From assembly GCF_016735495.2 (NCBI RefSeq), contig NZ_JAERQY020000001.1, forward strand, positions 682,001 to 746,000: 64,000 nucleotides of DNA, given 5' to 3'. The notes below the pieces were generated by a model that worked only from the letters and a program-made list of their open reading frames with translations, did not search any database and was not told where the DNA came from. Source of the stretch: Lysobacter sp. MMG2. Lineage in GTDB: Bacteria > Pseudomonadota > Gammaproteobacteria > Xanthomonadales > Xanthomonadaceae. Both the position numbers and the translations under genes were made by a program. Positions 28,435 through 30,935 of the stretch are shown here, one piece after another. Position 1 is the first letter of the stretch; each line of letters begins with the position of its first letter.

Positions 28435-29412
28435 TCAACCCCTGGTCGAAGCGGCGGCGTCGTGCATGAAAGCCGCCCGCGCCGCCTCCAGCGACTCGCG
28501 CTGGCGCAGCGGATCGAACCAGCGCGCGTCGAGTTCGCCGCGCAACCAGGTGAACTGCCGCTTGGCGAGCTGGCGGGTGGCATAGACGCCGCGGTCGCGG
28601 AATTCCGCCGGATCGGTCGCGCCGTCCAGATGCTCCCAGGCCTGGCGATAACCCACGGCGCGCAGGGCCGGCAGGTCCAGCGGCGCCGAGTGGTCGCGCA
28701 GCTGCGGGATCGCGCGCAGCGCCCTCGCCTCGTCGAGGAAACCGTCGGCCAGCATCAGGTCGAACCGCCGCGCGATCCGCTCGTGCAGCTCCGCACGATC
28801 CTCAGGTGCCAGCACCAGCTTGAGCACGCGGACCGGCAGGCGCGGAAGCTGCGAGACCTCCCGCCGCCAGTCGCTGATGGTGCGGCCGGACAGGCGGAAC
28901 ACTTCCAGCGCTCGCTGGATACGCTGGGCGTCGGTGGCGTGGATCCGCGCCGCGGCGTCGGGATCGATCTGCGCCAGTTCCGCATGCATCGCCGCCCAGC
29001 CACGCGACTGCGCCTCGGCCTCGAGCCGGGCGCGCATGTCCGCGTCGGCCTCGGGCATGGGCGACAGGCCCTGCAGCAGCGCGTGGAAGTACAGGCCCGT
29101 GCCGCCGGCGAGGATCGGCAATCGTCCCCGGGCCAGGATGTCCGTCACGGCGCGGCGCCCGTCCTGGGCGAACTCCGCCGCCGAGTACGGCTGCCACGGC
29201 TCGCGCAAGTCGATCAGGTGGTGCGGCACGCGCGCGCGCTCGGCCGGTGTCGGCTTGGCCGATCCGATGTCCAGCCGCCGATACACCAGGGCCGAGTCCA
29301 CGCTGACGATCTCGCCGCCGAAACGCTCCGCCCAGTCGAGCGCGAGCGCGGTCTTGCCCGAGGCGGTCGGGCCCATCAGGGCAATCGCGAGGGGGCGCGT
29401 GTCGGCGGGCAT
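28435..29412 (-). CDS. miaA: tRNA dimethylallyltransferase MiaA
   Basis: ATG 29412 gives 325 residues, the usual length; the frame continues upstream into the repeat array but that part is noncoding. Motifs: P-loop GPTASGKT (14-21), the DSALVYR segment (DSxQVYR in most homologues), [10 protein letters not shown] near 105, and the C-terminal [12 protein letters not shown]. It adds an isopentenyl group to A37 of UNN-decoding tRNAs. It is the first gene of the miaA-hfq-hflX series. The four-unit repeat array lies immediately upstream and may hold its promoter. Confidence 0.94.
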
Positions 29413-29476
29413 GTCGGGCGCGGCGTGTCGGGGGCGTAGCCTCGCACAGCCGCCGTCGTCGGGGAACCTCGCCGCG

Positions 29477-29579
29477 CTTTCCACACAAGGTGTGGAGAAC
29501 CGCTGGGGCAAGGCTGTTGATAACGTGCTGCAGCCCTGATGCCGCAAGGGCTCCCGGGAGTCTGGCGAAATTTTGGCCA
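29477..29579 (+). repeat. DnaA-box-like repeat unit 0 (most diverged)
   Basis: The unit starts CTTTCCACAC-AAGG-TGTGGAGAA, an inverted pair of CCACA cores, then has GTTGATAAC, a TGCAGCCCTGATG block matching TGCATCCCTTGCG of units 2 and 3, and ends with a near-palindromic tail TGGCGAAATTTTGGCCA whose first base is 86 bp after the unit start. Confidence 0.7.
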
Positions 29580-29590
29580 ACCCCCGCCCG

Positions 29591-29693
29591 CTATCCACAT
29601 TGCCTGTGGACAAGCCTGCGGACAGCGGTGTGGAGAGCGGCCGCATAGCTCGGCGTGGCGCGGCCTCGTGCAGGTCTGGCTAAAAAATCACCA
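29591..29693 (+). repeat. DnaA-box-like repeat unit 1
   Basis: The core is CTATCCACA, a 5-base spacer, then CTGTGGACAA; the complement of TGTGGACAA is TTGTCCACA. CTGCGGACAG and GTGTGGAG follow. Both 9-mers differ by one base from the DnaA box TTATCCACA. The tail TGGCTAAAAAATC starts 86 bp after the core. The first 45 bp are nearly identical to units 2 and 3. Confidence 0.85.
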
Positions 29694-29774
29694 GCGATGA
29701 GGCTTGACGAACGCCGCACTTTCGGCCGTGTCGTCGACATCGACCCCGCCCGGTTTCGGATGCAACCAACGCGA

Positions 29775-29877
29775 CTATCCACACAGCCTGTGGACAAACC
29801 TGCGGACAGTCGTGTGGAGACACGCCTGCATCCCTTGCGACACAAGCATTGCAAGAGGGTTGGCGAAAAATTGATCG
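29775..29877 (+). repeat. DnaA-box-like repeat unit 2
   Basis: The core CTATCCACA, spacer CAGCC and TGTGGACAA form a 6-bp inverted repeat (TCCACA/TGTGGA). CTGCGGACAG and CGTGTGGAGA come next, and TGCATCCCTTGCG is shared with unit 3. The A-rich tail TGGCGAAAAATTG starts 86 bp after the core. Confidence 0.87.
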
Positions 29878-29923
29878 CAGAAATCGTTTGACTCGCGTGT
29901 CGATTTCGGCATCACCGCATGCG

Positions 29924-30026
29924 CTATCCACACGCCCTGTGGACAAGCATGCGGACAGCCGTGTGCGTATCACGCTGCATCCCTTGCGCACCAAGGCAGG
30001 CAGCGTGTTTGCTCAAAAAATCGCCA
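29924..30026 (+). repeat. DnaA-box-like repeat unit 3
   Basis: Core CTATCCACA, spacer CGCCC, TGTGGACAA, then ATGCGGACAG and CGTGTG. TGCATCCCTTGCG is as in unit 2, and the tail TGCTCAAAAAATC again starts exactly 86 bp after the core. The unit ends nine bases before the folP stop codon. Confidence 0.87.
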
Positions 30027-30035
30027 GGCGGCGGA

Positions 30036-30935
30036 TCATTCGTCGTCGGGCCACTTCGGCATCGACGACGCCGGCTTCGCCCGCGGCATCGCCTGCGAAG
30101 CGACGGCGTTCCACACCTTCAACGCATCCACGGTCGCGGCGACGTCGTGCACGCGCAGCAGTTTCGCGCCGCGCTGCGCGGCGATGAGGTGCGCGGCGAC
30201 CGAGCCGATGGCGCGATCGCGTGGATCGCTGCGCCCCACCAGTTCGCCGATGGTGCGCTTGCGCGACAGGCCCGCGAGCACGGGCACGCCCAGTTCGACG
30301 AAACGCTCCAACTGCGCGAGCAGGACCAGGTTGTGCTGTGTGTCCTTACCGAAACCGAAGCCGGGATCGACGACGATCTTCTTCTTCGCGATGCCCGCCA
30401 TCTCGGCGGCGAAAATGCGCTCGGCGAGGAAGCGGTGCACCTGCGCGACGACATCGTCATAGTGCGGCGCCTCCTGCATCGAACGCGGCTCGCCCTGCAT
30501 GTGCATCAGCACGACCGGCACGCCGAGCGCGGCGGCCGCGTCGAGCGCGCCGTCGCGGCGCAGTGCATAGACGTCGTTGATCATGCCCGCGCCGGCTTGC
30601 ACTGCGGCACGCATCACCTCCGGCTTGGAGGTGTCGATACTGAGCGGCAGTTGCGTTTCCTTCGCCAGGCGCTCGATGACGGGAATCGTGCGGCGGAGTT
30701 CTTCCTCGACGGACACTTCGGCTGCGCCCGGACGCGTGGATTCGCCGCCGACATCGAGCAGGTCCGCGCCCTCCTCCGCCAGCTTCAGGCCGTGCGCGAC
30801 CGCGGCTTCGAGCGTGTCGTGCGCACCGCCGTCGGAGAACGAATCCGGTGTGACATTGACGATGCCCATGACGCGCGGGCGGTCGAGGACCAGCGGGCGG
30901 CCGTTGCAGTCGAGAGTGAGCGTGGTGTCGAACAT
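30036..30935 (-). CDS. folP: Dihydropteroate synthase
   Basis: From ATG 30935 the product has 299 residues. MGIVNVTPDSFSDGG (about 23-37), the DVGGESTRPGA segment with the pterin-site Arg, DPGFGFGK and the late GLSRKR are all present. It condenses p-aminobenzoate with hydroxymethyl-dihydropterin pyrophosphate in folate synthesis and is the sulfonamide target. The leader just before the ATG consists of GGGATTC heptamers, so the ribosome binding site is poor. It follows ftsH, as in enterobacteria, but a terminator lies between them. Confidence 0.95.
   Translation of the reverse strand: MFDTTLTLDCNGRPLVLDRPRVMGIVNVTPDSFSDGGAHDTLEAAVAHGLKLAEEGADLLDVGGESTRPGAAEVSVEEELRRTIPVIERLAKETQLPLSIDTSKPEVMRAAVQAGAGMINDVYALRRDGALDAAAALGVPVVLMHMQGEPRSMQEAPHYDDVVAQVHRFLAERIFAAEMAGIAKKKIVVDPGFGFGKDTQHNLVLLAQLERFVELGVPVLAGLSRKRTIGELVGRSDPRDRAIGSVAAHLIAAQRGAKLLRVHDVAATVDALKVWNAVASQAMPRAKPASSMPKWPDDE

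Follow-up and report, generated by a model that had tools for sequence, protein, structure and literature searches.

What is a tandem array of DnaA-box-like sequences doing between the genes folP and miaA of Lysobacter sp. MMG2? The array lies in the window, by which we mean the whole stretch of DNA analysed (64,000 nucleotides). An initial annotation had read it as a cluster of DnaA sites possibly serving titration, reactivation or replication control. Comparison across genomes strongly supports a cluster of predicted DnaA sites for replication control, and among the options listed reactivation fits best, because box order, orientation and spacing are those of the Escherichia coli DARS core. 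Judging from sequence, and with a probability that we put at roughly 0.7, we propose that the array represents four tandem DnaA-reactivating (DARS-type) units. Such units probably take part in deciding the timing of chromosome copying.

The four direct repeats are real and begin exactly where first described (Table 1). With offsets counted from the first base of box I, every unit follows one plan: box I at 0, then box II at +14 on the other strand, facing box I head to head across a 5-bp spacer. Boxes III and IV follow at +26 and +38, oriented as box II and keeping a 12-bp period. The inverted pair had been recognised from the outset, but its TGTGG lies exactly 5 bases downstream in all four units rather than 4-5, and the estimate of up to eight DnaA sites was too low, as each unit holds the further boxes at +26 and +38. 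Box I is CTTTCCACA in one unit and CTATCCACA in three. Box III (+26) is weak throughout and, in unit 1, barely recognisable as a box. Units 2, 3 and 4, not units 1-3 as initially proposed, resemble each other most; unit 1, which starts 114 bp before unit 2, is divergent. The A-rich tail reported at a fixed 86 bp does keep a fixed phase, since its offset is constant in all four units, with a slightly different figure: the 15-mer GNNNAWWWWWTNNNC begins at +87 and an A/T run at +91 in each.

Table 1. The DnaA-box array and its neighbouring genes (positions in the window)
Feature	Position	Strand	Details
hfq	28310-28035	-	after miaA on the minus strand
miaA	28435..29412	-	translation and start choice; NCBIfam TIGR00174 and NF001602 name miaA/hfq; similarity to E. 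coli miaA and hfq
folP-miaA intergenic gap with array	29413..30035	none	gene limits; both flanking genes on the minus strand
Unit 1	29477..29578	+	box I 29477-29485, box II 29491-29499, very weak box III 29503-29511, box IV 29515-29523, palindrome 29564-29578
Unit 2	29591..29692	+	box I 29591-29599, box II 29605-29613, box III 29617-29625, box IV 29629-29637, palindrome 29678-29692
Unit 3	29775..29876	+	box I 29775-29783, box II 29789-29797, box III 29801-29809, box IV 29813-29821, palindrome 29862-29876
Unit 4	29924..30025	+	box I 29924-29932, box II 29938-29946, box III 29950-29958, weak box IV 29962-29970, palindrome 30011-30025
folP (dihydropteroate synthase)	30036..30935	-	named by NCBIfam TIGR01496 and NF008004
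ftsH	32959-31058	-	before folP on the minus strand

Chance does not account for this arrangement. Allowing up to one mismatch per box, nine boxes were counted in the gap, whereas 500 dinucleotide shuffles gave 0.30 on average and never more than 3. Four head-to-head pairs in the gap have a 5-bp spacer, an arrangement that none of those shuffles produced; chance can thus be excluded. Box density reaches 14.4 per kb in the gap, compared with 0.17 per kb in the remaining window. Open reading frames of 80-112 amino acids overlap the gap, and none was taken for a gene. Across the MMG2 genome, five sites fit the pattern TCCACAN{0,16}TGTGGA, all with a spacer of 5: the four array units and one site upstream of priA. 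The same pattern written backwards, used as a control, finds four matches.

Within the family, it is the spacer rather than the number of matches that stands out. Over 149 genomes the pattern totals 516 matches against 431 for the backwards control, only a little above on totals, and genome by genome it is higher in 76, equal in 28 and lower in 45. Among the 36 family genomes for which places were listed, spacer 5 accounts for 89 of 120 sites, or 72 of 103 once arrays are merged, related genomes not being independent of one another. Class-wide, the corresponding figure is 32 of 75 sites among the matches listed from 56 genomes. The signal of the pattern is its concentration on one spacer, not the total of its matches.

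The folP-miaA gap itself had been named beforehand as the place to look for conservation, and the outcome was mostly positive. A DNA search of the 149 family genomes gave matches in 28, and folP and/or miaA was present in 21 of the 30 loci fetched from it. Searches with FolP and MiaA then provided 81 gaps from the 149 genomes (80 relatives and the window). This set leaves out four longer gaps (G019, G080, G122, G146), six of about 60-150 bp (G043, G072, G099, G109, G117, G125), gaps of 40 bp or less, and genomes with folP and miaA on different contigs, far apart or not found (judged by eye); many family genomes have almost no gap between the two genes. Under a fixed geometric rule devised for the analysis, 40 of the 81 gaps contain units, 101 in total, and the other 41 contain none. 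The near-86-bp phasing extends to most of these, the Fis-type 15-mer described below lying at +85 to +87 in 68 of the 101. Measured in bits per base, conservation is 1.44 for box I and 1.82 for box II, about 0.8 for boxes III and IV and 1.13 for the tail, then falls to 0.14 beyond the tail.

Unit number and strand differ between relatives. There are four units in MMG2 and nine or ten in one relative, Lysobacter antibioticus HS124 (G116), whose gap has 10 head-to-head pairs, 9 of them units by the geometric rule. The folP of this strain (G116:C77:51962-52895) matches in two separate pieces, and may therefore be broken or misassembled. Further relatives include L. niastensis (G078), L. changpingensis (G148) and Vulcaniibacterium tengchongense (G052). 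In 15 of the 40 gaps with units, a pair of them is spaced at 114-115 bp. The last unit lies downstream of folP, 113-203 bp from its stop, in 27 of the 40, and the first unit starts less than 100 bp from miaA in 12 and more than 1.4 kb from it in 24. These distances indicate that units keep to folP more than to the start of miaA.

The tail, left unexplained by the initial annotation, is a palindrome that fits a loose Fis consensus, about eight helical turns from box I. Besides the phased copies in folP-miaA units, the 15-mer was found elsewhere within 130 bp three times. In 200 rounds of shuffling the units beyond base 48, an average of 0.05 units, and never more than 1, had it at +85 to +87. 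The MMG2 genome encodes a Fis homologue (E 7.8e-20, 49% identity over residues 22-97 of E. coli Fis). The stricter Fis consensus is given as GnnYAnnnnnTRnnC (PMC8682772), from which the palindrome departs: G occupies position 4 in 53% of folP-miaA units and in 68% of priA sites, and replaces T at position 11 in 35% of priA sites. Because of these departures, another protein could read the palindrome.

The second home of the unit lies upstream of priA, where a single unit of the same plan occurs in 34 of 34 genomes examined, given a spacer-5 site among the listed matches. In 29 listed genomes, all 27 that have a spacer-5 site have one adjacent to priA, the other two being G005 and G035. The remaining seven of the 34 are MMG2, whose priA is named by NCBIfam (47% identity to E. 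coli PriA), together with G064, G006, G071, G105, G138 and G133, chosen as single-contig or for a closed folP-miaA gap. Measured to where the priA match starts, the head-to-head pair lies 110-201 bp upstream in 33 genomes and 365 bp upstream in one (G006). The 15-mer of the unit lies at +85 to +87 in all 34, starting at +86 in 25, and fits the consensus at 8 or more of 9 positions, with all 9 in 20 sites (better of two orientations); a score of at least 8 of 9 elsewhere in the unit occurs in three of the 34. Outside the family, eight spacer-5 loci have flanks available; one of them, in a genome from another family of the class, has the pair beside priA, and the best 15-mer score at +83 to +89 is 6 to 9 of 9. 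The initial annotation had counted dispersal of the repeat without conservation at miaA against its own reading; the repeat does occur in a few other places, above all upstream of priA, and the folP-miaA site recurs.

Units or head-to-head pairs also lie at other loci. Several Lysobacter genomes carry a further single unit (loci L130, L142, L150, L151, L153, L161, L193) beside a gene that we take to be response-regulator-like. Lysobacter enzymogenes ATCC 29487 and Lysobacter sp. yr284 (L147, L148) have another four-unit tandem array, and the 8-kb loci of these second arrays contain no folP or miaA match. The closed-gap genomes G064 and G006 (L181, L186, L269, L270) have pairs of units elsewhere, 114 and 116 bp apart; their minus-strand 15-mer, at +86/87, scores 8 or 9 of 9. 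Rhodocyclaceae and Azovibrio genomes (L137, L139, L152) have a spacer-5 head-to-head DnaA-box pair between two genes, presumably xseA and an exbB-type gene. Roseateles, Acidovorax and Thauera (L132, L133, L135) share a spacer-5 unit without a single difference in its first 48 bases, which suggests a mobile or plasmid-borne copy. A metagenome-assembled genome of the Steroidobacteraceae (L126) has a unit with the 15-mer at +86 (9 of 9), and we assume the gene beside it to be hemW-like.

Position on the chromosome says little about function. In nine single-contig genomes with at least one unit in the gap, the folP-miaA locus lies 0.265-0.333 of the genome length from dnaA (G105 0.289, G129 0.330, G138 0.333, G065 0.329, G038 0.275, G083 0.265, G133 0.299, G101 0.281, G096 0.280). 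The distance is 0.244-0.364 in four single-contig genomes without units and 0.42 in two with a closed gap, so that all 15 single-contig relatives fall between 0.24 and 0.42. Since unit-less genomes have the locus at similar distances from dnaA, this is weak evidence. The priA unit lies 0.078-0.151 of the genome from dnaA in five genomes. Map distances given for E. coli are about 0.33 for DARS1, 0.21 for DARS2 and 0.10 for datA (PMC4585315).

A dense cluster of boxes could also serve as a DnaA sink or datA-like site, which would titrate DnaA or promote ATP hydrolysis after its own replication and so lower free ATP-DnaA. The density given above is in keeping with this, the differing unit number between relatives suits titration, and datA, likewise an intergenic DnaA-box cluster, lies about 6.5 kb from miaA-hfq in E. 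coli (L115, E. coli 4388000-4406000; datA coordinate from PMC11317965). Even so, we consider this reading unlikely. In place of the 0/+14/+26 geometry, datA has a head-to-head offset of 12, and it is described as depending on an IHF site between its boxes (PMC5742627); the array shows neither the box order of datA nor an IHF site between DnaA boxes, an exact IHF consensus being absent from the MMG2 gap and present in one of the 81 gaps. Identification of the array with datA by synteny with miaA was dropped on geometry, and the shared neighbourhood is possibly a coincidence. Moreover, a pure sink would need neither the fixed head-to-head spacer nor the palindrome kept at +85 to +87, both of which are seen at two separate loci. 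It is this specific geometry that favours the DARS-type reading.

DnaA-dependent control of transcription, of the miaA-hfq operon here and of priA at the second locus, appears improbable. It would accord with the 12 gaps in which the first unit is close to miaA, with the distances upstream of priA given above, and with the binding of E. coli DnaA upstream of genes, uvrB at DARS1 among those listed (PMC11317965). Against it, units lie far from miaA in 24 of the 40 gaps and close to the folP stop in 27, unit number and strand vary, and a simple scan of the gap found no sigma-70-like promoter or terminator; for priA alone, transcription control is a possible reading. Because the units keep to folP, we prefer the DARS-type reading to operon control. 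A dispersed repeat without a replication function (REP- or MITE-like), or an RNA element, is very improbable: some genera do have several unit loci per genome, with tandem expansion, but the folP-miaA and priA positions recur across genera, conservation is concentrated on box I, box II and the tail and all but vanishes beyond, a search of Rfam with 29200-30300 gave no match up to E = 1, and an RNA role was dropped because RNAalifold on 21 units recovered only the box I/II palindrome and no covarying pair.

If the units are of DARS type, DnaA at box I would face DnaA at box II head to head, as the boxes themselves do, and boxes III and IV would extend the DnaA oligomer in the orientation of box II. 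By analogy with the E. coli sites, the head-to-head contact would weaken the binding of ADP in ADP-DnaA, and the freed DnaA could reload with ATP and initiate replication. A DNA-bending protein, most likely Fis or similar, may bind the palindrome and stimulate the reaction, and a helper of the Fis type would link it to growth phase. With more than one unit in tandem, the site would have a greater local capacity. Several observations count against the DARS-type reading: the gap has no IHF consensus, box III is weak in unit 1, the corresponding motif of DARS2 lies at another distance, the palindrome fits the stricter Fis consensus in part, and 41 gaps hold no units.

In the open-licence literature, judged from titles, abstract starts and term counts, we found nothing published on DARS, or on clusters of DnaA boxes, for Lysobacter or Xanthomonas; as the search covered open-licence papers only, DARS-like sequences in this family may have been noted before. 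What we regard as new is the repeated array with its fixed palindrome. The published DARS work that we found concerns E. coli and its two single, rather different sites. A clean modular plan, combined with natural variation in copy number among close relatives, makes it testable which parts of a unit are needed. It likewise makes testable whether dosage sets the timing of initiation, and which protein reads the palindrome.

Among known E. coli systems, oriC resembles the array in its many DnaA boxes and A/T-rich stretches. It differs in that the array is not beside dnaA, which is on another contig, and in that E. coli oriC has no strong 0/14/26 match; mapping of GC skew, as the initial annotation had suggested, showed no clear switch within the window. 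DARS1 reads TTATCCACT-5-TGTGGATAA-3-TGTGTATTA and DARS2 TTATTCACC-5-TGTGGATAG-3-TGTGAAGAA, both with offsets 0/14/26, in line with the description of their core boxes I-III as having one spacing at both sites, with box I opposite (PMC5742627). The same spacing is found for boxes I and II in all four MMG2 units, and for a convincing box III in units 2 to 4 only. For DARS1 and DARS2, a published list gives double boxes that correspond to the tandem boxes II-III (PMC11317965). The head-to-head arrangement of boxes I and II is described as characteristic of DARS and functionally essential, and sequences similar to DARS as present in many proteobacterial species (PMC10380432). We defined a strong head-to-head pair by at least 15 of 18 matches, with at least 7 of 9 in each box. 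Our E. coli sample comprised 111 kb in 13 stretches, covering 16 DnaA-bound regions (ChIP-seq, Table 1 of PMC11317965) and the priA and fis regions. Here, strong pairs at offset 14 occurred only in DARS1 and DARS2, and none was found at oriC, at datA or in the priA region.

DARS1 (bioD-uvrB) is like the array in its boxes at 0 (+), +14 (-) and +26 (-), its intergenic location and its position about 0.33 of the genome from oriC. It also has TTGGCG with the first G at +86, the start of the palindrome in 25 of the 34 priA sites (+87 in the MMG2 array). It differs in being single copy, with a better box III and only half of the palindrome. Equating the tail with a piece of DARS1 was rejected: nothing beyond the TTGGCG half (at +84) matches, and DARS1 has a negative matrix score, so we keep the likeness as a hint only.

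DARS2 (rppH-mutH) shares the core spacing and carries a similar motif, TTGGCGAAAGATCAACCAA. This motif ranks second of all sequence windows in 42.5 kb of E. coli with a matrix from the priA sites, the top match lying elsewhere in the same stretch, and second and fourth (two strands) with a matrix from the folP-miaA units. DARS2 is reported to be activated by Fis and IHF (PMC4245941; PMC8682772) and to require Fis at FBS2-3 (PMC4245941), and the Fis-consensus-like palindrome of all four MMG2 units is a candidate accessory site. Its distance, however, is unlike that in DARS2, where the motif lies at +184. DARS2 also requires IHF sites, whereas DARS1 is described as needing no IHF (PMC5742627); the missing consensus in the array gap is hence an argument against regulation by IHF as in DARS2, and does not count against a site of the DARS1 type. 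Further, DARS2 has one core and a weaker second 0/14/26 match (20 of 27, at L114:4451), in contrast to the four-unit tandem array.

Taking these likenesses together, we speculate, tentatively and with more doubt than conviction, that the unit is an ancient module of gammaproteobacterial DnaA recharging, in which a head-to-head DnaA pair spaced by 5 bp is flanked by boxes at a 12-bp period, with a Fis-type palindrome fixed some eight turns away. The family home of such a module would be upstream of priA, and it would have been amplified in Lysobacter-type bacteria to as many as nine or ten units, copy number setting recharging capacity. The palindrome would then be a third general DARS component, partly hidden in the divergent DARS1 and DARS2 of E. 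coli.
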